Positions 23,768 to 33,697 of a stretch of DNA of 34,501 bases are shown piece after piece. This DNA is from a virus, in the IMG/VR virus record IMGVR_UViG_3300036791_000521, positions 1-34,501 of that record; one strand, given 5' to 3'. The notes under the pieces are model-generated. The model did no database searches and was not told the DNA's origin. It was given only the letters and a program-made list of their open reading frames with translations. Numbering within the stretch: position 1 is the stretch's first letter; every line of letters begins with the position of its first letter. The translations under genes and the position numbers were made by a program.

Positions 23768-24100
23768 CTAGCGGCCTTTGCCGTTCCTGACCCATAGGCT
23801 GCGCCGGATCAACTCGGCCCGCAGGCCGTCACCGTCGAAGCGATGGGTTTTGGGATAGCCGACCGGGTTGCGGTAGTACCGCCCGATCAACTCGCCCCTG
23901 GAGCCCAGGTAGTCGTATCGTTCACGCCTGCAACGAGTACAACGTAGGCACAGGATTCGGTAGGCCAGTTGCGCCACCTCGCCGTCGATGTGCTTGGGGC
24001 TGGGATTGTTGGCCCAGGCGTGGGCCCACAGCATCTTGCAGGTGAAGATGTCCGTGCCCAGATCCCCGAGGTCGGTATACGCCGACTCGTCAACGGCCAT
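23768..24100 (-). CDS. Cysteine-rich hypothetical protein
   Basis: The 110-aa protein (ATG at 24100; longer TTG start at 24127 less likely) has a zinc motif RILCLRCTRCRRERYDYLGS followed by RGELIGRYYRNPVGY. This C..C..C...R.D pattern occurs in small actinophage proteins of unknown role. It overlaps the previous gene in the operon by 11 nt and is the last leftward gene before the terminator, so it is translated by coupling and has no structured leader of its own. Confidence 0.66.
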   Translation of the reverse strand: MAVDESAYTDLGDLGTDIFTCKMLWAHAWANNPSPKHIDGEVAQLAYRILCLRCTRCRRERYDYLGSRGELIGRYYRNPVGYPKTHRFDGDGLRAELIRRSLWVRNGKGR

Positions 24101-24461
24101 GGCGCACCGTGCCCAAGAGACGGTCAAGCTCGGCCGCGTCCAGCTTCAACCACACGCCACGCTCGTCCACCCGAATGGTGAACTCGGTGGCGTCGTCACT
24201 GTTGCTGGACGGTGGTGCCATGATTTGGCTGTCGATAGCCGCCACCGTGGCCTCAGGCGAGGCGACGGCTTTGGCTGGGGCACGCTTTTTGGCGACCTTG
24301 CCGGCGATACGGCTATACGGCATCATGTCGCCAGAACGGCCATCGGGTTGCGGTATGCGGTCACCGAAGTGCTCGCGCGCCTTCATGTGGGCGGCGAGGC
24401 CCGTGCCGTCCGAGACATTCTCGCACTGCGGGCACTTGTACCGCTTGATGGATTCCGTCAT
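24090..24461 (-). CDS. C2H2 zinc-finger protein
   Basis: The 123-aa protein starts at ATG 24461, 8 nt from GGAAGGA. Residues 8-31 (YKCPQCENVSDGTGLAAHMK, then H31) form a C2H2 finger with C10, C13, H25 and H31, followed by a basic Lys/Ala/Pro linker and a C-terminal acidic helix with WLKLDAAELDRLLGTV. C2H2 fingers are unusual in bacteria but known in actinophages, where DNA-binding or host-directed roles are proposed. It has a three-hairpin leader upstream (24462-24552). Confidence 0.72.
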   Translation of the reverse strand: MTESIKRYKCPQCENVSDGTGLAAHMKAREHFGDRIPQPDGRSGDMMPYSRIAGKVAKKRAPAKAVASPEATVAAIDSQIMAPPSSNSDDATEFTIRVDERGVWLKLDAAELDRLLGTVRHGR

Positions 24462-24552
24462 GCACACATCCTTCCTAAGTGTGTGGTACTGCGGTGTTGG
24501 CGATCAACACCCGAAAGCCTCGAGCCATCTCGAGGCAATCGGCTGGCTACCG
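24462..24552 (-). promoter_or_regulatory. Structured leader, family 1 (UU/UU hairpin, mid hairpin, SD hairpin)
   Basis: On the leftward RNA, going toward the gene: hairpin 2 (24511-24542) has outer CCGA/UCGG, a UU/UU internal loop and inner GCCUCGAG/CUCGAGGC around AUGG. Hairpin 1 (24493-24511) pairs GGUGUUG with CAACACC around AUCGC. The SD hairpin (24463-24485) pairs CACACA with UGUGUG and puts AGGAAGGA in its loop, 1 nt before the AUG. Hairpin 2 starts 10 nt after the upstream stop. Confidence 0.8.
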
Positions 24553-24759
24553 CTAGTGGCAGGAGGCGTGCAGGTTGATTAGTTCGCCTACGGTCCTGCG
24601 CCCCACCCGACGAATGCCGTGGCAACAACGCAGGTGATCACCGATGCGCCAGTTGATCTGGCGAACGGCGTGCCGTCGACGCTCAGGCGATAGCCACGCC
24701 AGTGTTTCCAGGCCGCGGCCAATCTCATCGTGCTGCTTGCCATGATGGAGATGCGCCAT
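24553..24759 (-). CDS. Small protein with possible helix-hairpin-helix
   Basis: The 68-aa protein is rich in His, Arg and Cys. Residues 33-62 (AVRQINWRIGDHLRCCHGIR, then RVGRRTVGELINL) look like a helix-hairpin-helix or alpha-CTD-like fold (hydrophobic-GIR-hydrophobic-G), a nucleic-acid-binding motif. Its ATG lies 3 nt after the stop of the preceding gene in the operon, so it is probably coupled to it. Moderate support only. Confidence 0.52.
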   Translation of the reverse strand: MAHLHHGKQHDEIGRGLETLAWLSPERRRHAVRQINWRIGDHLRCCHGIRRVGRRTVGELINLHASCH

Positions 24760-24762
24760 TTA

Positions 24763-24930
24763 TCAACGCAGGGCGTCCGGGTTGATATCCTGAGCGGCCA
24801 AAATGGCCCGAATAAGAGTCATTCGGTCCAAGGCACTTACCCGTTGGGCCTCCTCGAGCAACTGCGCCCTGGTCATACGGTGCAGTCTGCGCTCGTAACC
24901 CAACAGGTCGCGCAGGCTTTCTTTAGCCAT
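24763..24930 (-). CDS. Small helical protein
   Basis: The 55-aa protein starts at ATG 24930 with GGGAG 5 nt upstream; the open frame extends to 24999, but that part overlaps the structured leader. It is two amphipathic charged helices (ESLRDLLGYERRLHRMTRAQ, LLEEAQRVSALDRMTLIRAI). No known motif. It heads a two-gene unit with the downstream 68-aa protein. Confidence 0.66.
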   Translation of the reverse strand: MAKESLRDLLGYERRLHRMTRAQLLEEAQRVSALDRMTLIRAILAAQDINPDALR

Positions 24931-25017
24931 TTGCTCTCCCTTCTGAAAGTTGGTGCCTATCGACACCCGAAAGGCCCGAGCCAAAGACACTCGGACCAAT
25001 CGGCTGCTGATAGGTGA
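24931..25017 (-). promoter_or_regulatory. Structured leader, family 1
   Basis: Hairpin 2 (24967-25003): outer CCGA/UCGG, UU/UU loop, inner GGUCCGAG/CUCGGGCC with one U.G pair. Hairpin 1 (24952-24967): GGUGUC/GGCACC around GAUA, one U.G pair. SD hairpin (24934-24949): CUUUC/GAGAG with one U.G pair around AGAAGG, 3 nt before the AUG. Each wobble is possible only on the leftward RNA; the plus strand would have A-C mismatches. Confidence 0.78.
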
Positions 25018-26829
25018 CTAACTCTGCGCCTTCATTTTGGCGAGAGCCACGTCCCTAAACAACAGAGCCAAATCCCCCGGTACGGCGATTTCTTTGAAGA
25101 ACTCGACGCCGTGAGGATCGGGCTGGGTCACCATGCCGACAACCTGCGAAGTATCGAGGTACGCCAACACGGTGGTAATGCCAAACTCGCGCATGGCCGC
25201 TATGACCAAATCACCCTGCCCGCCGTACCAGTCGCCATCTGTGAGGATGATGACCAGCCGATTGAGAGCCGGGCTATTGGCCAGGTGAGCAAAGGCCTCA
25301 CGGAGCGCCGATTCCGGGTCTGTCCCGCCCCATGCCTGCGGGTGGAACATACGCTGATCGGGACGCTCACCTGGGCGACCCAGCACACGATGGGGACCTG
25401 AGCAGAAGGTGAAGATGGTGGCTTCACCGTCCAGGTCGTCCACTGCGTGCCAGATAGCCCACAATGATTCGGCCAGGTTCAGGGTCACCTTTTGCATCGA
25501 ACCTGAAACATCAATGATGCACACCAACTCCAACTCGCTGGCATCCATCTGCCCAGGCTCATAGCGGTCAAAGAGCGTGTCCGGATCAACCCTGGGGTTG
25601 AGCAGACGTTGCACCTTGATCCGCCCGCTGTTCACACGGCGAACCCAGCCCGGCTCGGTTTCTTCTTTGAAATCGAGCAATGCGTCGGCCACCTCGCGGT
25701 GTAGACGCCGGGCGCCATCGGTGGCTTCTCGATACCGACCTTCGGGCATCACGCCGTCAATGTCGACTCCCGGTCGCCCCCATCGGAGGGCATCCAAGAT
25801 TGATTCGATATCGGCTTTGGCATCCGGGTCTCTCTCGAGCCCCTTTCGCGCCTCGTTCTTTAGCTCCTCCTTGAGTTGCTTTTGATCGAGGGGCTTGGGC
25901 GGGATCGGGTTGTCGCCCGCTCCCGCGCCAGTGCCGGTTGGCTCGTCCCCGCCACCTTCGGCAGGAATGTCGCCCTCCGGGCCATCACCTTCGCCACCGG
26001 CTTTCCCTTTGCCTCCGGTCGCCTCGTCCTCGGCTTCGTCAGCCGTGGGCGGTGCGCCATTGTCATCAGGGAAAGTCTCGGGCTCGCCGCTCGTAAGGAC
26101 ACCGCCACCGCAACCTCCGGGCGGGATATCCAAATCGAACAGCGTGTGCAACCGTTCGAGAATGCTCATGGCCTCGTCGGCCTCATCCTCGCCCGGATCG
26201 GTGAGCCGCTGATACTCACCTACCAACTGCGTGACCTCTTTGGCCGTCGACTCGCCACGGGCGAGCACGAACATGGCGCGAGCGGTATCCCGAATCTGGC
26301 TCGAGAGCCAGGTTCGCCCGGTGACCAGGAGCCAGGCTCCCCCGCCCTCACGCACCTTTATGTGATGCCCGAGAGCAGCCACCAAGTAGTTGCGCCACGG
26401 CGAGAACCGAGCCAGGAGCAATCGCTCCCCGCGTTGGTCCTCGCAGATGTTGTGCAACGGGACAACGCCCTTGAGGAACAGTTGGTCGGCCTCTATAACC
26501 CGAGCCATGAGAGTTGAATCTGTACGGGGGCTAAAGAGGACGTGCATTAGCTCGTGAGCATTGGTGCCCAACCAAACCGCAATGTCCACTTTGCTGATCG
26601 GCAGCGGCATGTGCGCCATCGAAAAGCTGATCCGGTCGCCTTCGAGCGTGGTCCAGGCCGGCGCGGGGCCAGCCGGGACGATGCTCACGGCATCCAGGTC
26701 ATAGGACAGGATTTGATCGGTGAGCCGCAACTCACGGGCCAAACGCTGAAGCCGCAGAACGTCCTGCGGACTATAAGTGTCGGGCAATAGCACCTCGGTG
26801 GTGCCTTGCCGGCCACTTGTACGGTACAT
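25018..26829 (-). CDS. CobT-like protein: HExxH domain plus VWA (MIDAS)
   Basis: The 603-aa protein pairs with the AAA ATPase encoded upstream in the operon. Residues 80-110 contain NAHELMHVLFSPRTD: H92-E-L-M-H96, a metalloprotease-like HExxH. Residues about 250-330 are a Gly/Asp/Glu/Pro-rich acidic linker as in CobT. From about 434 a von Willebrand A domain starts (LELVCIIDVSGSM, D440, then TFCSG, GGTDPE and ILTDGDW), forming the MIDAS metal site. This layout fits the DUF2201-type metallopeptidase/VWA-like family and CobT. Start ATG 26829 lies 5 nt from GGGAG. In phages such AAA/VWA pairs are of uncertain role; remodelling of a host or virion complex is one possibility. Confidence 0.85.
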   Translation of the reverse strand: MYRTSGRQGTTEVLLPDTYSPQDVLRLQRLARELRLTDQILSYDLDAVSIVPAGPAPAWTTLEGDRISFSMAHMPLPISKVDIAVWLGTNAHELMHVLFSPRTDSTLMARVIEADQLFLKGVVPLHNICEDQRGERLLLARFSPWRNYLVAALGHHIKVREGGGAWLLVTGRTWLSSQIRDTARAMFVLARGESTAKEVTQLVGEYQRLTDPGEDEADEAMSILERLHTLFDLDIPPGGCGGGVLTSGEPETFPDDNGAPPTADEAEDEATGGKGKAGGEGDGPEGDIPAEGGGDEPTGTGAGAGDNPIPPKPLDQKQLKEELKNEARKGLERDPDAKADIESILDALRWGRPGVDIDGVMPEGRYREATDGARRLHREVADALLDFKEETEPGWVRRVNSGRIKVQRLLNPRVDPDTLFDRYEPGQMDASELELVCIIDVSGSMQKVTLNLAESLWAIWHAVDDLDGEATIFTFCSGPHRVLGRPGERPDQRMFHPQAWGGTDPESALREAFAHLANSPALNRLVIILTDGDWYGGQGDLVIAAMREFGITTVLAYLDTSQVVGMVTQPDPHGVEFFKEIAVPGDLALLFRDVALAKMKAQS

Positions 26830-26916
26830 GGCTACTCCCTTCAAAGTAGTTGTGCCGGGTACGGGCGATCCGTACCCACAACGCCCCGGCAGAGCCAGGG
26901 CGAAGTGGCTAAGGAC
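26830..26916 (-). promoter_or_regulatory. Structured leader, family 1 (variant stems)
   Basis: Hairpin 2 (26876-26908): outer CCAC/GUGG, UU/UU internal loop, inner CGCCCUGGC/GCCGGGGCG with one U.G pair around UCU. Hairpin 1 (26857-26877): GGGUACGG/CCGUACCC around AUCGC. SD hairpin (26832-26849): CUACU/AGUAG around UUGAAGGG, 2 nt before the AUG. Compared with the CCGA/UCGG leaders both strands of each stem have changed together. Confidence 0.82.
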
Positions 26917-27207
26917 CTATCGCGTTTTACGCCGAGAGGACTTCCTCGGCACGGCCACCCAGGCGGGGGGCCAATCGGGGAACTGCGCCACGACCTTTTC
27001 CCATTTCGGCTCATAGCCCAGGATTCCAGCGGCCTCGGCCATGGCCTTATCGGATTCGTCGGGGCGAGGACCAGGTAGGGCGGTGCGGACACCGCCACCG
27101 GGCCAACCAACATGGAGCACCCATCGGCCATCGTCACCCCGCGCTCCTGGGGAACGCGGTGCCTGCAACGACAACATGGTGGGTTGCGGTGGCGGGGGCT
27201 TTTTCAT
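26917..27207 (-). CDS. Hypothetical protein between the AAA and VWA genes
   Basis: The 96-aa protein starts MKKPPPPQPTMLSLQAPRSP and has a short globular part (AAGILGYEPKWEKVVAQFPD, then WPPAWVAVPRK) and a basic end. Its ATG overlaps the AAA gene stop (ATGA), so it is coupled to the AAA gene, and it precedes the leader of the VWA gene. An adaptor role for the AAA/VWA pair is possible but not shown. Confidence 0.64.
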   Translation of the reverse strand: MKKPPPPQPTMLSLQAPRSPGARGDDGRWVLHVGWPGGGVRTALPGPRPDESDKAMAEAAGILGYEPKWEKVVAQFPDWPPAWVAVPRKSSRRKTR

Positions 27208-28097
27208 GATCCCAGCCGCCAGGATTTCTCCAACTCAGCCACAATGGCTGTGCTGTTCGCCTCGAGGGCTCTCATGATCGGGGACCGCTCTGCCTCGGCA
27301 AAACGGTTCGCAAAGAGTCGAGCCGCCGGATTCCAACCGAAGCGCCAGGTATGGTGCTCCAACTCCATCAGCGCGTTACTGCTGACGGGGGTTTGAATCT
27401 CGGCCAGTGAGCGAATGCCCTCGGCCATGTCCAGCAACCGCTCCGACTTGAGCAGTTTCATTTCAACCTCATGCAGGTAGGGCCACTCGTGCGGCTGCCC
27501 GAATCGGTTGAGCAAGGCCTGGTTCATTCGCACCGTCCCTTCATAAACCCTGCTCGGGTTCATGTTCGCCGCCAACAGCAATGGCTGGGGCCGGCCCAAA
27601 CCACCTGCGCCACCTTTGATGGTTTCGGTGTTCTCAGGCAGGGACATTCGCCGGGTAACAGCCAGCAGTTGGTGAAACCCGGCACTGATTCGAGGGTTAA
27701 CCATGTTGATTTCCTCGATAACTGCTGCGCCGCCGTAGCGGACGACCAACGTAAACTCGCCGTCTACCCAGTGCAGGCCTTTTGGGTCCAACCGCCCGAG
27801 TGTGCTACTCAGGTCCATGGACGCATTGGCCTCGATGATCGCCAGGGGCAATCCGCGTGCGGCGGAATAGGCCCTGAACAGCGTTGACTTGGCCGACCCG
27901 GTCGGGCCAACCAAGAGCACGTTTTCCAAATCCTCGATGGCCGCATCCAGATAATCGAAATCGAGTATGCCCTCGATGTCGCGATGCACATAACGCTTCG
28001 CCAGCACTGGGTCTGGAATCATCTGTTGGACGCGGGCCCGATCAATCTCGGGCACCGTGGATATGTCAAACGTGGGCGTGTCTGCTTTCACAGGCAC
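27204..28097 (-). CDS. MoxR/CobS-type AAA ATPase
   Basis: The 297-aa ATPase has Walker A GPTGSAKST (residues 64-72), AAVIEEINMVNPRI (Walker B with E128/E129 and the CobS-type helix), GFHQLLAVTRRMSLPENTET and LLLAANMNPS (sensor 1), then an arginine-finger region ALLNRFGQPHEWPYLHEVE. This is the MoxR/CobS clade, whose members work with VWA proteins like the downstream gene. GTG 28097 is 4 nt from GGGAGG; GTG 28091 is an alternative. The gene forms one unit with the 96-aa protein downstream. Confidence 0.9.
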   Translation of the reverse strand: MPVKADTPTFDISTVPEIDRARVQQMIPDPVLAKRYVHRDIEGILDFDYLDAAIEDLENVLLVGPTGSAKSTLFRAYSAARGLPLAIIEANASMDLSSTLGRLDPKGLHWVDGEFTLVVRYGGAAVIEEINMVNPRISAGFHQLLAVTRRMSLPENTETIKGGAGGLGRPQPLLLAANMNPSRVYEGTVRMNQALLNRFGQPHEWPYLHEVEMKLLKSERLLDMAEGIRSLAEIQTPVSSNALMELEHHTWRFGWNPAARLFANRFAEAERSPIMRALEANSTAIVAELEKSWRLGS

Positions 28098-28178
28098 AGA
28101 GCCTCCCTTCAAAGGGCTCAAATGGTGTGGGCAATCCACACCCGAAAGGCCCGAGCAAAGATCGGGCCAATCGGCTGT
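28098..28178 (-). promoter_or_regulatory. Structured leader, family 1
   Basis: Hairpin 2 (28142-28174): outer CCGA/UCGG, UU/UU loop, inner GGCCCGA/UCGGGCC. Hairpin 1 (28124-28142): GGUGUGG/CCACACC around AUUGC. SD hairpin (28099-28119): GAGCC/GGCUC around CUUUGAAGGGA, leaving 1 nt before the GUG. The SD-hairpin stem shares no sequence with those of the other leaders yet occupies the same place. Confidence 0.82.
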
Positions 28179-28931
28179 TCACAGCCCTCGCACGTCACCT
28201 GGGCCAGCCGGCCTTTTGGTCGGGGGTGGCGTGGTGGGTACAGGTGTGGTGGCCGGAGCCGACTTCTTGGCTGCGGCTGCCTTGGCTCGAGCCAACTTGA
28301 TGCGGAGTCTTTCCACATGCTCGATGGCTCGAGTCATTCCGACATGGAGCTTGTCCAGGTCGGAGCCTTTGGTGTCGCCGCCGATCCGACTGATCAACTG
28401 CGGGCTCCCGGCTTTGATGTCGTCCAGCACATCGAACTGGGGTTTCACAGGGGTCGTACCACTGCCACCTCGGCCACCGCCTGCTCCTCGAGTGGTAACA
28501 GGCTTGCCCCTTTTGACCTGAACGGCTCTGCGGACTGCCGAGACACTGACCTTGCCAGGCCCGCCCAGACTCTTGCTCAAGTCCTGCAACAGCTTTTCCT
28601 GTTGCGCGACGGTGTCCTTGAGGTTCATGGCCTCACGGTGCGCCGAGAAGGACACATCGGGCACCCGCTTTTCCGGGGGCCACGCCAGGGCGGCGTTACG
28701 GTACGCCTTGAGTGTGTTGGCACTCAGGTTTGCCGTAATCCCTTGTGCGCCAGCGGCGTCCATGATTTCATCGAAACCCTTTTCGCCGGTCGGCACCTTC
28801 TTGGCCAGGGCTTCGGCCAATACCCAGGCCTGCCCTTCCGTTTGCAGTTCCCGCATTGCCTCGACAATGGCCGCGAGGTCCTTGTCGACGGGCTTTGGGG
28901 GCGTTGCGGTTTGTGGCGTTACGTTTGCCAC
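28179..28931 (-). CDS. Predicted DNA-binding or scaffold-like protein
   Basis: The 250-aa protein starts at GTG 28931 with GGGAG upstream. Residues about 68-104 (SANTLKAYRNAALAWPPEKR, then VPDVSFSAHREA) match a motif common in actinobacterial and actinophage proteins, L..YR..A..WP...R....S.H, linked to DNA-binding helix-turn-helix proteins. The middle is Gly/Arg-rich and the C-terminus Lys/Ala/Pro-rich, both likely disordered. A regulatory role is inferred. It is read from its own structured leader. Confidence 0.62.
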   Translation of the reverse strand: MANVTPQTATPPKPVDKDLAAIVEAMRELQTEGQAWVLAEALAKKVPTGEKGFDEIMDAAGAQGITANLSANTLKAYRNAALAWPPEKRVPDVSFSAHREAMNLKDTVAQQEKLLQDLSKSLGGPGKVSVSAVRRAVQVKRGKPVTTRGAGGGRGGSGTTPVKPQFDVLDDIKAGSPQLISRIGGDTKGSDLDKLHVGMTRAIEHVERLRIKLARAKAAAAKKSAPATTPVPTTPPPTKRPAGPGDVRGL

Positions 28932-29017
28932 GGCTCTCTCCCTTCAGTGAGAGTCGGCACGGGCGATCCGTACCCACAACGCCCGGCACGGGGCCGGGCG
29001 AAGTGGCTAAGGACGGC
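28932..29017 (-). promoter_or_regulatory. Structured leader, family 1 (variant stems)
   Basis: Hairpin 2 (28974-29006): outer CCAC/GUGG, UU/UU loop, inner CGCCCGGC/GCCGGGCG around CCCGU. Hairpin 1 (28956-28974): GGUACGG/CCGUGCC around AUCGC with a U.G pair (an A-C mismatch on the plus strand). SD hairpin (28936-28953): CUCUC/GAGAG around ACUGAAGG, 4 nt before the GUG. Confidence 0.82.
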
Positions 29018-29212
29018 CTATTGCACGTCCTTGATCGTCATGATCCAGGGCGGCTCAGCGTCTTGATAATCGGCAACGTCGACCATGACACTGCCGAGCT
29101 TGACCAGCCGGTGCGCCACGAGACAGTGATACGACTGCCCGAAGCCGGGTGCGCCAATCTCTGCGTCATAGAACACTTCTGACCCGCAGGTTGGGCAACG
29201 AAGGTTGCTCAA
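29018..29212 (-). CDS. Small zinc-ribbon protein
   Basis: The 64-aa protein starts at TTG 29212, overlapping the preceding stop as TTGA. LRCPTCGSEVFYDAEIGAPG gives one CxxC pair; YHCLVAH supplies a further Cys and His. The rest (DYQDAEPPWIMTIKDVQ) is a short folded tail. It is the second gene of a two-gene unit and has no leader. Role unknown. Confidence 0.62.
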   Translation of the reverse strand: MSNLRCPTCGSEVFYDAEIGAPGFGQSYHCLVAHRLVKLGSVMVDVADYQDAEPPWIMTIKDVQ

Positions 29213-29469
29213 CGAATCACCGCCAACCGCTTTACGGTGAACTGCGTGCCACGGCGGGTGAGACCCTCGGCTCGAACGGCAGCGCGCCGTTGGTTGCCAT
29301 AGACCTCGACTTGCGGCTCCCGCCCGGCCCGCTCGATCACGAAAACTTCAACGTGATGCTGGCGGACGGTGGGCAGGTGGGCCTTTTGCAGACCCTCGGC
29401 AATGGCCTTGTCCACTGGATCGGCGGGCTTGGCCGTTGCCTCCTTTTTGGCTGGTGCTGGCACAATCAT
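29209..29469 (-). CDS. Small basic hypothetical protein
   Basis: The 86-aa protein begins MIVPAPAKKEATAKPADPVD and has an alpha/beta second half (HHVEVFVIERAGREPQVEVY). The ATG at 29469 is preceded by AGAAGGGAA. Its first three codons (ATG ATT GTG) and leader are the same as those of the next upstream gene (29983), although the proteins are otherwise different, so the start region rather than the protein is conserved. Function unknown. Confidence 0.62.
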   Translation of the reverse strand: MIVPAPAKKEATAKPADPVDKAIAEGLQKAHLPTVRQHHVEVFVIERAGREPQVEVYGNQRRAAVRAEGLTRRGTQFTVKRLAVIR

Positions 29470-29548
29470 TTCCCTTCTGTGAGTGTGTGCCGGTGTGGGG
29501 AATCCACACCCGAAAGCCTCGAGCCATCTCGAGGCAATCGGCTGGGGA
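29470..29548 (-). promoter_or_regulatory. Structured leader, family 1 with start-codon hairpin
   Basis: Hairpin 2 (29510-29541) is identical to that at 24511-24542. Hairpin 1 (29492-29510): GGUGUGG/CCACACC around AUUCC. The last hairpin (29459-29491) pairs GGCACA with UGUGCC and encloses the GAAGGGAA Shine-Dalgarno and the AUG itself; its 3' arm lies inside the first codons. This differs from most other leaders, where the AUG is just outside the stem. Confidence 0.76.
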
Positions 29549-29983
29549 CTACAAAAGCTCCAGCGGGCTGACGTGGCCGGTTGGGTGGAAATGCACCCGT
29601 TCGCCAGCCGCGTAGTTCAAATCCCCGCCGTGCAAACCGATATGCATTTCATCGGTTTGTGCACCGGGAAGATGTATGCCGTGGTCAGCCTCGAGGTGGC
29701 TGCCAAGGACATAGGCATCTGGCCGGTTGAGCACCTCGAGCAGGTCGAATGGGAGTTCGGGGGCCGGACCGTATTCGGTGGCCCCATTCTCCCAATCCTG
29801 AAACCAGGCTTCGGCTGCCCGTTGCGAGGAATCTGCATTGCAGATGCCACAGCCCAACTCGTCACAAGTCAGGCCACGGTCATTCTGCCAATCACGCCGA
29901 CTGGCAATATGATCCTCGCAATACTCGATCAAAGCGCCGAGCACCTTGATCCGTTGCCCATTGGTTAGGGGTTGCACAATCAT
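29549..29983 (-). CDS. Hypothetical protein, 144 aa
   Basis: The protein starts MIVQPLTNGQRIKVLGALIE, continues with a helical region containing three Cys (CEDHI, CDELGCGICNAD), and ends in a His-rich stretch (DEMHIGLHGGDLNYAAGERV, then HFHPTGHVSPLELL). The Cys and His residues could bind a metal, but the pattern is not one I recognise. It stands alone in its unit behind a family 1 leader. Confidence 0.64.
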   Translation of the reverse strand: MIVQPLTNGQRIKVLGALIEYCEDHIASRRDWQNDRGLTCDELGCGICNADSSQRAAEAWFQDWENGATEYGPAPELPFDLLEVLNRPDAYVLGSHLEADHGIHLPGAQTDEMHIGLHGGDLNYAAGERVHFHPTGHVSPLELL

Positions 29984-30057
29984 TTCCCTTCTGTGAGTGT
30001 GCCGGTACGGTCGATCCGTACCCGCAACCTGCCCGACCGAGGCCGGGCAGGAGGCGG
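29984..30057 (-). promoter_or_regulatory. Structured leader, family 1 with start-codon hairpin
   Basis: Hairpin 2 (30022-30057): outer CCGC/GCGG, CU/UU internal loop, inner CCUGCCCG/CGGGCAGG; it begins directly after the upstream stop codon. Hairpin 1 (30004-30022): GGUACGG/CCGUACC around AUCGA. The last hairpin (29974-30002) pairs GCACA with UGUGC around the SD and AUG. Confidence 0.78.
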
Positions 30058-30243
30058 CTATGAATACCGTTTGCGGAATCCGCCGGCTCGAGCATGGACG
30101 GACCTGTGCAGGTCACCGCCCCGTGGCCCGTGAGACTTGTTGGTCTCCGGGCAATGCCACTTGCCACCGGATGGAAACTTGGTGCGCCCGCAGTAAGGAC
30201 ATTGGGGAGCCGTCTTAGGTGAATACCCCTTTGCCCTAGTCAT
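30058..30243 (-). CDS. Small zinc-ribbon basic protein
   Basis: The 61-aa protein (ATG 30243) has APQCPYCGRTKFPSGGKWHC: CxxC plus a later Cys, then a basic tail rich in His and Arg. This is a typical small phage zinc-ribbon that may bind nucleic acid. It overlaps the 34-aa gene upstream by 8 nt and relies on it for translation. Confidence 0.62.
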   Translation of the reverse strand: MTRAKGYSPKTAPQCPYCGRTKFPSGGKWHCPETNKSHGPRGGDLHRSVHARAGGFRKRYS

Positions 30244-30340
30244 CGTCCTGCTCACCCATGTCGATGAGTAGTGCAATGGCCTCGGTGCGGGTGTAGCCGC
30301 CCTCGTCAATAAGGGCGGCAACCTTTTCTTTAAAGGTCAT
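30236..30340 (-). CDS. 34-aa acidic helical protein
   Basis: The frame MTFKEKVAALIDEGGYTRTE, then AIALLIDMGEQDDD, follows AGGAG held in an SD hairpin 5 nt before the ATG. It reads as a UBA-like or small helical bundle with an acidic end. The good ribosome site, leader and 8-nt overlap with the next gene support a real gene despite its size. Confidence 0.6.
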   Translation of the reverse strand: MTFKEKVAALIDEGGYTRTEAIALLIDMGEQDDD

Positions 30341-30433
30341 TTTGGTTGTGCTCCTTCCACACAAAGAGAAACGCCGTTTGTCTCTCTGCATGGCCGTTGC
30401 CCCGGCCACTGTGGGCCGGGGCTCCGGGTGCTC
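30341..30433 (-). promoter_or_regulatory. Structured leader, family 2 (GC hairpin, GAGAGAC hairpin, SD hairpin)
   Basis: First hairpin (30399-30422): GCCCCGGCC/GGCCGGGGC. Second (30366-30386): GAGAGAC/GUUUCUC with one G.U pair, possible only on the leftward RNA. SD hairpin (30346-30364): UUGUG/CACAA with UGGAAGGAG in the loop. Same three-hairpin order as family 1 but no shared sequence. Confidence 0.8.
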
Positions 30434-30694
30434 CTAGTCGACTCGCCAGGCCGTCAATAGGTCGGCCAGGCTCTTGTATTCGATGGTCTCAATGTCCGTG
30501 AAACGGCCCGGCCCCTTCTCGACCGAAAAGGTAATCATGTTGCCGACAAAGACCTTCAGGCTGTGCCCGTCGATCAAGAATCCGCAACGCCGTGAAGGGG
30601 TCGGTACCCGCTCCACGAGGGGCAGTAGAGGCCAATGGGGCCAATCGTCGGGGGAGGCGGCGAACGCCGTTTCCCGGCTATTGGTAGGTGCCAT
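30434..30694 (-). CDS. Hypothetical protein, 86 aa
   Basis: The protein (ATG 30694; a longer frame to 30727 would run into the leader) has a proline/tryptophan-rich start (ASPDDWPHWPLLPLVERVP) and a beta/alpha end (KVFVGNMITFSVEKGPGRFT, then SLADLLTAWRVD). I recognise no family. It is a single-gene unit with a family 2 leader. Confidence 0.62.
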   Translation of the reverse strand: MAPTNSRETAFAASPDDWPHWPLLPLVERVPTPSRRCGFLIDGHSLKVFVGNMITFSVEKGPGRFTDIETIEYKSLADLLTAWRVD

Positions 30695-30780
30695 TTTGTG
30701 TTCCTTCCACACAATGAGAGACGCCAAATGTCTCTCTGCATGGCCGTTGCCCCGGCCACTGTGGGCCGGGGCTCCGGGTG
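30695..30780 (-). promoter_or_regulatory. Structured leader, family 2
   Basis: GC hairpin (30749-30772) is identical to that at 30399-30422. Second hairpin (30716-30736): GAGAGAC/GUCUCUC, perfect. SD hairpin (30696-30714): UUGUG/CACAA around UGGAAGGAA, 1 nt before the AUG. The first part of the leader is a near-exact copy of 30366-30422, so it is a recent duplicate. Confidence 0.82.
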
Positions 30781-30966
30781 CTATAGGTCGGCCCCGACCA
30801 GGGTAACGACGGCAAATGGTGTGTATTCGTCTGCCGGTTCGATCCTGGCCTCGACTAAAACGAATGAGCCATCCTCATAATAAAGTTGGATCCGCCCGTC
30901 GTCGGGGACGTTTGCCAGTGCCGCCCGTAGTTGCCCTACGGTCATGGTCTCTGGTTCGCTGGACAT
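30781..30966 (-). CDS. Small acidic protein, 61 aa
   Basis: The protein MSSEPETMTVGQLRAALANV continues PDDGRIQLYYEDGSFVLVEA, a form seen in small actinobacterial proteins that begin MTVGELRAAL..VPDD. It is likely a compact alpha-beta fold. ATG 30966 is preceded by AGGAG within an SD hairpin. Role unknown. Confidence 0.62.
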   Translation of the reverse strand: MSSEPETMTVGQLRAALANVPDDGRIQLYYEDGSFVLVEARIEPADEYTPFAVVTLVGADL

Positions 30967-31059
30967 AATAGGTTGTGCTCCTTCCACACAATGAGGACCG
31001 TGCTGGTCTCTCTGCATGGGTAAATCCCCAGGTTTCATCCTGGGGATTCACTCAATGGA
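30967..31059 (-). promoter_or_regulatory. Structured leader, family 2
   Basis: First hairpin (31023-31048): AAUCCCCAGG/CCUGGGGAUU around AUGAAA. Second (30993-31010): GAGACC/GGUCCUC with one bulged C. SD hairpin (30973-30991): UUGUG/CACAA around UGGAAGGAG, 6 nt before the AUG. The distal stem differs from the previous two leaders while the SD hairpin is conserved. Confidence 0.76.
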
Positions 31060-31335
31060 TTAGGCCGACTGTGAGAAAACAGTCTTGCTGGCCCCCCGTG
31101 AAAGGGTACCAACGGCCACCAGGTTGTCGCCATCGAAGACGCTGAGAATGAGGTTATCATTCCGCCCCGTCCACGAAATCTGGACCGCCGGAAGGTCGAA
31201 AAGACCGTCCGCCAACCAGGACTCAACCTTGGCCTTGGCCTTGGAAATACCGTGGGCCCGGAGGGCCACCGGCTGGGAGCCGTCCCACTCGAAAGTGAAA
31301 ACGGTATCTGCCACCATGTTGTTGAACACGGCCAT
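31060..31335 (-). CDS. Hypothetical protein, paralogue of the next gene
   Basis: The 91-aa protein (MAVFNNMVADTVFTFEWDGS) is a tandem paralogue of the gene at 31427-31696: both share ALRAHGISKAKAKVESWLAD and a VFDGD(N/D)LV segment. The pair is close at DNA level, including part of the downstream hairpin, so it is a fairly recent duplication. ATG 31335 is chosen, 8 nt from AGGAG; the frame continues to 31353 in the leader. Function unknown. Confidence 0.72.
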   Translation of the reverse strand: MAVFNNMVADTVFTFEWDGSQPVALRAHGISKAKAKVESWLADGLFDLPAVQISWTGRNDNLILSVFDGDNLVAVGTLSRGASKTVFSQSA

Positions 31336-31426
31336 AACTTGTGCTCCTTCCACACAATGAGAGACCGGATTGGTCTCTCTGCGTGGGTAAATCCCCCGGT
31401 TTCATCCAGGGGATTCACTCAATGGA
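31336..31426 (-). promoter_or_regulatory. Structured leader, family 2
   Basis: First hairpin (31390-31415): AAUCCCCUGG/CCGGGGGAUU with a U.G pair possible only on the leftward RNA. Second (31359-31379): GAGAGACC/GGUCUCUC, perfect. SD hairpin (31339-31357): UUGUG/CACAA around UGGAAGGAG, 3 nt before the AUG. Confidence 0.82.
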
Positions 31427-31696
31427 TTAGGCCGTTTGGGTGAAAACCTCTTGGCCGGCCCCCCGGTAAAGGGTTGCCACGGTGACCAAATCGTCACCGT
31501 CGAAAACATTGAGTACCCAATGATCCCCAACGCTGGTCCACGAAATGTTGACTGCCGGAAGGTCGATATAACCATCCGCCAACCACGATTCAACCTTGGC
31601 CTTGGCCTTGGAAATACCGTGAGCCCTCAGGGCCAATGGACCGGAGCCGTCATCGTAAGTGAAGACGGTGTTTGCCGGGATATTGTTGTTAAACAT
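31427..31696 (-). CDS. Hypothetical protein, first gene of the leftward block
   Basis: The 89-aa protein (MFNNNIPANTVFTYDDGSGP) shares about 60 percent of residues with its downstream paralogue, densest over the ALRAHGISKAKAKVESWLAD helix. The mixed alpha/beta pattern and the conserved FDGD/RGA residues suggest one small domain. It is closest to the divergent region and so probably the first translated gene of the leftward transcript, a place where early host-takeover proteins often sit. Function unknown. Confidence 0.72.
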   Translation of the reverse strand: MFNNNIPANTVFTYDDGSGPLALRAHGISKAKAKVESWLADGYIDLPAVNISWTSVGDHWVLNVFDGDDLVTVATLYRGAGQEVFTQTA

Positions 31697-31750
31697 TGCT
31701 CATCCTTCCATGATGAACGATCCCCCAGGACCTTGTTGCCCTGGGGGAAT
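31697..31750 (-). promoter_or_regulatory. Leader of the first leftward gene
   Basis: SD hairpin (31700-31716): UCAUC/GAUGA around AUGGAAG, 3 nt before the AUG; its stem matches neither UUGUG/CACAA nor the family 1 stems. Upstream lies CCCCCAGG/CCUGGGGG (31722-31747). A middle hairpin like that of the other leaders is not clear here. Confidence 0.72.
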
Positions 31751-31825
31751 GGTGAGTGCCCTCACCGGGAAATCGTCCAATCATTGGAAGGGTATTGGAC
31801 GATAACCCGCTGGTGACATAGTCAC
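31751..31825. repeat. Inverted-repeat cluster
   Basis: GGTGAG/CTCACC (31751-31766), perfect TCGTCCAAT (31773-31781)/ATTGGACGA (31794-31802) and GTGAC/GTCAC (31813-31825) follow one another. The middle one is the best operator candidate for the leftward block. Confidence 0.6.
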
Positions 31826-31832
31826 TGTCTTG

Positions 31833-32095
31833 CCCCATACTGTCCTGCCATCGGACGTTTCTGGGGTCCCCCATACTGTCCTGCCATCGGACGTTTCTGG
31901 GGAGTCAGGGAATCCCCATACTGCCGTTGTTTCCGACGTTTCTGGGGATTCCTATTCGATTGTCAAGTACCTGGGGAGACTTGAGGCCACGTCACCTGGG
32001 GAGTACCGGAGATTTGAGTGATTGTCCGGTACGGTCGTGGTCCCACCTGGGGGATGGGTCCCCCCCTACTGTCCTGCCATCGGACGTTTCTGGGG
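31833..32095 (-). repeat. Four 34-bp imperfect palindromic repeats
   Basis: Copies at 31833-31866, 31869-31902, 31914-31947 and 32062-32095. Read leftward each has CCCCAGAAACGTC, a 10-11-bp centre and AGTATGGGG or a variant. Copy 3 keeps the ends but has a different centre of the same length. The two fixed boxes, GAAAC and GTAT, are 16 nt apart, as in promoter or operator half-sites. Confidence 0.68.
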
Positions 32096-32303
32096 GTCCC
32101 TGGGGGTCCCTGGGGGACCCCCTTGATCTCTTTAGGTTGTCAAGTTACAACTATCAACCATCTTATCACACGCGGGATTCTTAGGGCCAGAAGGATTCTT
32201 AGGGTCCTGACCAGGACTTTTGTGGGACCCCTTCCGGGATGTCCCCTTTTGTCCGACCTTGAAATGGCGTGGAGATTGACTCGAGACTGGCGCATCCCTC
32301 GAG

Positions 32304-32332: not shown

Positions 32333-32373
32333 GACGATCCGGGGTCATATACGGACCCCCGTTGCCAGGGATT

Positions 32374-32534
32374 TCCCTGGGGGTCCCTGGGGGTCCCTAG
32401 GGGGTCCCTGGGGGTCCCTGGGGGTCCCTGGGGGTCCCTGGGGGGTCCCTGGGGGTCCCTGGGGGTCCCTGGGGGTCCCTGGGGGTCCCTGGGTCCCTGG
32501 GTCCCTGGGGGTCCCTGGGGTCCCTGGGGGTCCC
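32374..32534 (+). repeat. Tandem 10-bp array GGGGGTCCCT
   Basis: About sixteen near-copies of GGGGGTCCCT, with a few 7-11-bp variants (GGGTCCCT), run from 32374; three more lie at 32091-32117. The unit has the palindrome GGGTCCC and a period near one helical turn. On the plus strand G-runs of 3-5 recur with 5-nt spacers, so G-quadruplexes are possible. Confidence 0.85.
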
Positions 32535-33412: not shown

Positions 33413-33697
33413 ATGCAATACGCCATGAGCAACGGAAACCCCCGAGCTCGCCACGACCCATTGGTGGGCCTGGAAGCCAGCCGCAAAGTCGGCTTTGCCC
33501 TGTTCTACCAAGAGCGGGAACGAGCCGATGGCCTGGCCCAGGTCAGCCACCGCCAGCGAGAGCGCATCGAACTTCTGCTCGAGGCATTGCTCGAGCTAGT
33601 CGACGCCGTGCTGACGGCACGCAACATCGACGCTTTTGCCTTTGCCCTACGCATCCGCACTCTCATTGACCGCTTCATTGCCGAGGAGGAGCAATGA
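33413..33697 (+). CDS. Helical hypothetical protein
   Basis: The 94-aa protein is almost entirely helical: HRQRERIELLLEALLELVDA, then VLTARNIDAFAFALRIRTLI. GAGGAG lies about 10 nt before ATG 33413; ATG 33425 is also possible. The heptad-like Leu spacing suggests a dimer or coiled coil. It overlaps the next gene by ATGA. Confidence 0.64.
   Translation: MQYAMSNGNPRARHDPLVGLEASRKVGFALFYQERERADGLAQVSHRQRERIELLLEALLELVDAVLTARNIDAFAFALRIRTLIDRFIAEEEQ

Follow-up and report, generated by a model that had tools for sequence, protein, structure and literature searches.

Covarying hairpins at the non-overlapping gene starts of a leftward phage operon as possible translational separators

Why should the Shine-Dalgarno (SD) sequences of one phage operon lie between short complementary arms that differ from gene to gene and still pair? 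The window analysed here, 34,501 nucleotides in length, is an entire 34.5-kb IMG/VR virus, an uncultured tailed phage whose host is likely an actinobacterium. Its rightward genes include those for TerL, portal, capsid, tape measure, endolysin, exonuclease and primase, and a leftward block from 31.7 to 24.1 kb holds small genes along with a MoxR-like AAA ATPase gene (28097..27204, minus strand) and that of its vWA/CobT-like partner (26829..25018, minus strand). Because no promoter-like site was found on the operon strand within the block and no U-tract terminator in any of its 12 leaders, the block is probably a single message; terminator-like sites within it are also fewer than in shuffled sequence.

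A first-pass annotation made from the letters alone had described SD sequences displayed in hairpin loops in all twelve leftward leaders, which are named here by the positions of their start codons. Each stem it quoted is present on the minus strand where it was placed, with GAAGG between the arms in 12/12 leaders. The arms are CACACA/UGUGUG (24463..24485, start 24461), CUUUC/GAGAG with one G-U pair (24934..24949, start 24930), CUACU/AGUAG (26832..26849, start of the vWA gene at 26829), GAGCC/GGCUC (28099..28119, start of the AAA ATPase gene at 28097), CUCUC/GAGAG (28936..28953, start 28931), GGCACA/UGUGCC (29459..29491, start 29469), GCACA/UGUGC (29974..30002, start 29983 with ATG or 29977 with GTG), four copies of UUGUG/CACAA (30346..30364, 30696..30714, 30973..30991 and 31339..31357, for starts 30340, 30694, 30966 and 31335) and UCAUC/GAUGA (31698..31718, start 31696). 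The arms are complementary in all twelve leaders, but only eight leaders are distinct: those of 31335, 30966, 30694 and 30340 are copies of one repeat and those of 29983 and 29469 are near-copies of each other, which leaves fewer than twelve independent cases. Loops range from 6 to 19 nt across the leaders. The stems at 29983 and 29469 fit only with a 19-nt loop (at least 19 nt at 29469) and with the 3' arm over or beyond the start codon; at 29469 the arm runs past the ATG and over a GTG at 29463. Initiation at the GTG six bases downstream of the ATG would restore the usual SD spacing in both. All four genes that overlap their neighbor (30242, 29212, 27207 and 24759) are without a comparable leader.

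Taken singly, these stems are weak evidence, as 3-77% of flank shuffles match their scores in a loose search, but jointly they are significant. The summed stem score is 100 compared to 58±14 in shuffles, a value reached by 2/2000 shuffles, and arms paired better with their own partners than with exchanged ones (p=0.014, 8 distinct leaders). The arms do change together from leader to leader, with G-U intermediates. When the geometry was fixed (no loop above 12 nt, the 3' arm ahead of the start codon, 5 or more bp and no more than one G-U pair), 7/8 distinct leaders had at least 5 bp around the SD versus 0.99 expected, with a P of 1.4e-6 that is optimistic because the geometry was chosen after the data were seen; the 29469 and 29983 hairpins fail this short-loop test. 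Control genes are at chance, in line with what the first-pass annotation had noted for the rightward genes it checked (capsid and primase). By the fixed-geometry test, hairpins occur at 3/33 of the other SD genes of the window versus 3.4 expected and at 32/282 SD genes of 11 relatives versus 33.3 expected; Gordonia and Brevibacterium phages that carry homologues of the genes give 1/44 versus 1.8 expected. The hairpins are jointly enriched over shuffles in the leftward leaders of the window, to which the enrichment is confined, and the other SD genes stand at chance. The SD hairpin is real as a statistical pattern. An initial hairpin scan of all ORFs proved insufficiently strict and was set aside, and one arm-swap count that used hand-picked registers was left out as a test. 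A 7-bp stem, UCAUUGC/GCAAUGA, surrounds the SD of a rightward gene at 33675-33697 (plus strand), with the start inside its 3' arm; it is a single case, within chance.

Folding of complete leaders asked more of the individual stems. Every one of the 12 leaders is much more stably folded than its dinucleotide shuffles (z of -3.5 to -6.7); the overlapping starts score -1.1 to +0.6 in three cases out of four and -2.8 at 30242. Full-leader ensembles were used instead of short segments, whose folds were mixed because cut upstream hairpins misfold. The quoted SD stem is dominant in the folds of 26829, 29983, 29469 and 28097, reaches ~60% in 30694, and is partly supported in 24461, where the SD is partly paired. 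In about half of the leaders the ensemble prefers other structures for the SD region. An extended upstream hairpin, CCAYGCA/UGUGUGG, captures the 5' arm of the SD hairpin in 31335, 30966 and 30340; in 31696 the SD pairs preferentially at long range with a distant CCUUCC; and in 24461 and 28097 a CUU/CUUU opposite the SD, inside the quoted loop, can pair with part of it. Display of the SD in a loop is a reasonable prediction from these models, although the full-leader folds are not unanimous on it. Within the four-copy leaders (30340-31420, minus strand), UGUGUGG is common to two mutually exclusive hairpins, the extended upstream one and the SD hairpin, and these alternative pairings could act as a switch or be a by-product.

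Upstream of the SD hairpin, seven leaders carry a further pair of structures that the first-pass annotation had missed. The first (H1) is a helix of ~11-15 bp with a UU/UU internal loop and the second (H2) is a GAU-loop hairpin that abuts it directly with no gap, giving the pattern AGCC-NN-YU-[7-11-bp helix]-UU-NN-GG followed by GUNNNG-AUNNN-CNNNRC. On the minus strand, the copies lie at 24491..24544 (upstream of 24461), 24950..25005 (24930, with a shorter H2), 26856..26910 (26829), 28122..28176 (28097), 28954..29008 (28931), 29490..29543 (29469) and 30002..30059 (29983, with a longer H1). A pattern scan of the whole window returned exactly these seven copies, all of them in leaders, plus one chance site. 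The outer stem of H1 occurs as CCGA/UCGG, CCAC/GUGG or CCGC/GCGG, and the inner helix and H2 likewise vary on both sides. Five copies align cleanly, with registers set by conserved flanks and not picked for pairing; among these, 85/85 cells are paired and 10/17 pairs show compensatory changes, covariation that comes from a few copies in a single genome and so does not amount to evolution across species. None of 500 shuffles equaled the observed pairing, which fell to 35-46% when the partner was slid by 1-3 columns. Because MAFFT misaligned two copies, that of 29983 in its longer helix and that of 24930 in its short H2, both were kept out of the covariance model and served as held-out tests. 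The model built on the other five recovered them at 45.5 and 37.8 bits, respectively; across 545 kb the runner-up scored 21 bits and lay antisense to a true copy. The earlier suggestion of a shared RNA element is supported at the level of RNA, but it was understated, as seven leaders share a compound H1+H2 module.

The other five leaders have strong hairpins of their own at the corresponding place, again on the minus strand: at 30365..30428 upstream of 30340 (GCCCCGGCC..GGCCGGGGC and AGAGAGAC..GUUUCUCU), at 30715..30778 upstream of 30694, at 30992..31053 upstream of 30966 (AUCCCCAGG..CCUGGGGAU and GAGAGACC..GGUC-CUC), at 31358..31420 upstream of 31335, and at 31719..31770 upstream of 31696 (GGUGAG..CUCACC and CCCCCAGG..CCUGGGGG). 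The leader layout is then a strong hairpin pair, a gap of ~8-18 nt, the small covarying SD hairpin and the start codon. No Rfam family reached its gathering score, the best match within 24000-32100 scoring 24.7 bits where 115 were needed. Searches of viral contigs and ~85,000 genomes with the module pattern gave 48 stretches, none of which pairs like a true copy, and H1+H2 is so far known from this phage only.

Does the arrangement travel with the operon? No DNA relatives of the window were found in the phage collection, scans that each used one protein (AAA, vWA or TerL) gave no close relatives of the leaders, and a DNA pattern scan for a repeated SD hairpin found no relative. Relatives were obtained through capsid and vWA alignment searches. 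Protein relatives of the AAA ATPase and vWA partner occur in Gordonia and Brevibacterium phages at ~28-37% identity, and eleven IMG/VR contigs keep the set formed in the window by these two and a third conserved protein (25018-28931, minus strand), at 36-60% identity. When relatives were searched with the covariance model, as had been proposed as a check on covariation, the module scored at chance there. Nor is the SD hairpin conserved along with the genes of the operon: the 11 relatives are at background overall, and GMA6, Cantare and Hanem carry homologous genes without such a hairpin.

Individual relatives nevertheless mark the same starts in ways of their own. The clearest SD hairpins among the eleven are in contig G017, at 2/3 operon starts (UUCGUU-GAAAGGAA-AACGAA and CUCACU-GAAAGGAA-AGUGAG), with strong hairpins upstream. 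At 30287, 31322 and 33751 (plus strand) G017 has three intergenic 14-bp GC-rich hairpins followed by AACCGG, which show compensatory changes at two positions and have no sequence in common with the module of the window; they are a putative structured separator of independent origin in a relative. Leaders at the same genes are strongly structured in three further contigs (G022, G019 and G014). In five (L026, L027, L032, L036 and G020) the palindrome TGATAGACGTCTATCA, with variants, lies just before SDs of the same operon and looks like a DNA site or operator, and a constant palindrome, GGTGCACGAGCACC, is at the corresponding place in G022. Structured or dyad-marked starts recur across this phage group in differing forms.

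What the leader feature does we infer from its form and placement; the feature itself, as read from sequence, is real, covarying and lineage-specific. Our preferred reading, which we hold tentatively as quite possible though short of probable, is that the hairpins are separators that end in an SD-presenting hairpin, so that each non-overlapping gene of a polycistronic message initiates independently. The strong pair would block pairing between the preceding ORF and the next leader in the RNA, and it may in addition trim or slow the transcript. The small hairpin would consume the nearest flanking bases locally and leave the SD mostly unpaired. Each non-overlapping gene could then start translation independently, and overlapping genes would depend on coupling; these can be without a separator because they can be translationally coupled. 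Structural insulation ORF by ORF is documented in E. coli operons (PMC5318159), where, as proposed here, sequence-encoded boundaries limit pairing between neighboring reading frames, but those boundaries have no dedicated repeated hairpin element. Three observations count against the separator reading: full-leader ensembles favor other structures around the SD in about half of the leaders, relatives that carry the operon show no enrichment of the SD hairpin, and the covariation is among a few copies within the same genome.

The main competing explanation makes H1+H2 tandem V-shaped intrinsic terminators or attenuators, which would drop transcription stepwise along the operon, with the SD hairpin only helping adjoining starts, a role we consider unlikely but worth serious attention. 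Tandem hairpins lacking a U-tract are a described terminator class, and in M. smegmatis termination after gyrA is more efficient with a tandem pair of hairpins than with a single one (PMC8355165). The pairs of the window resemble that class in being two abutting GC-rich hairpins positioned after stop codons with no U-tract. Unlike V-shaped terminators, they are repeated with fixed internal-loop and GAU-loop letters and sit immediately before an SD, in a block where no internal promoter was found. The missing U-tract can also be turned against termination, since mycobacterial polymerase is reported to require one (Czyz 2014), and the block is poorer in terminator-like sites than shuffles. Moreover, H1+H2 lie 8-18 nt before the SD, which leaves no space for a promoter, so full termination there would silence the downstream gene.

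Next in line is processing, and here the chance seems to us slim. RNase III or another nuclease would cut in or beside H1+H2, making the separators processing or stability elements that leave mRNAs hairpin-capped at both ends. The early messages of T7 are RNase-processed mRNAs with hairpins at both ends. An internal-loop helix between cistrons, one per gene boundary, is what such a site would look like, and G017 has similar stacked hairpins; however, at ~11-15 bp H1 is a short helix for RNase III, though stacking of H2 could extend it, and the literature searched gave no support for processing. Either termination or processing could coexist with SD presentation.

Control through a phage or host RNA-binding protein, which the first-pass annotation had offered as one mechanism, fared poorly. 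On this account the SD hairpins are a translational operator and a protein, CsrA-like or other, binds the GAAGG loop to co-control the genes. A common loop core in a variable stem, one per translation unit, is the geometry of GGA-loop binders. The geometry fits CsrA in part: GGA is missing from the loop in leaders where GAAGGG runs directly into the arm. Loops also span 6 to 19 nt. The phage proteins scanned, which included part of the small ORFs, yielded no RNA-binding domain, CsrA-like or otherwise. GAAGG is also what an SD must be; since the SD alone explains the loop letters, their conservation needs no binding protein, and we regard such an operator as improbable.

The closest known parallel is the Start Associated Sequences (SAS) and Extended SAS (ESAS), described in cluster K mycobacteriophages such as TM4 (PMC3203893) and in cluster EF Microbacterium phages (PMC7302621). 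In SAS, 3-bp arms flank the SD within one fixed sequence of 13 bp (GGG-AUAGGAG-CCC; GGG-AAAGGAC-CCC), and the accessible text of the two papers does not describe SAS as a hairpin. Like SAS/ESAS, the leaders of the window are repeated at the starts of some non-structural genes, place the SD between short complementary arms with a dyad upstream, and sit in gaps and not at overlapping starts. Unlike SAS, they lack the 13-bp sequence (GGGATAGGAGCCC or GGGAAAGGACCCC) and share GAAGG only; their arms differ, their stems are 5-6 bp with pairing kept as sequence varies, and their upstream module has a UU/UU internal loop. ESAS consists of 17-bp imperfect inverted repeats with a consensus, from which the upstream module differs in form and in having arms that covary. 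The six closest SAS copies in TM4 keep GGG/CCC (one has GGG/CCU) and two weaker copies break the arms, so SAS in TM4 shows no covariation. By sequence definition the leaders are not SAS members, though they may work alike. In the accessible part of PMC3203893, departures from the ESAS consensus were judged not to support RNA pairing and DNA binding was preferred; that the dyads of the window are likewise DNA operators for a dimeric phage regulator is very improbable, since, for all the constant palindromes that relatives have here (TGATAGACGTCTATCA in several, GGTGCACGAGCACC in G022), its letters vary while pairing is kept, G-U pairs are present, and all copies are transcript-sense and just upstream of starts.

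A more far-reaching version of the separator reading, which we offer as a speculation and on balance doubt, is that the three covarying helices (the UU/UU helix, the GAU-loop hairpin and the SD hairpin) form a new class of phage intercistronic RNA, a portable separator copied from gap to gap within one operon and perhaps recognized by a factor, with SAS/ESAS as its fixed-sequence, simplified counterpart. In the literature searched, which was mostly non-subscription, we found no repeated phage element described as an SD-presenting hairpin. The role of the start-associated repeats of actinophages has been an open question since 2011. The SAS motif is nearly invariant, so RNA pairing is inseparable from DNA binding there; in the window the letters change and the pairing stays, which makes structure and sequence testable apart. 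Should the separators function as suggested here, they would offer compact parts for the independent expression of neighboring genes in GC-rich hosts.

Two tandem paralogues lie at 31427-31696 and 31060-31335 (minus strand) and share 69% identity (…AHGISKAKAKVESWLADG…); neither the phage collection nor viral contigs gave a relative of them. Some 10 tandem units of 10-11 bp, TCCCTGGGGG, occupy 32353-32493, and part of this array is also present at 32087-32124. Just upstream of the first leftward gene, at 31826-32095, a 41-nt repeat occurs four times (CCCCATACTGTCCTGCCATCGGACGTTTCTGGGG), and this area is a possible promoter or operator region of the leftward block.
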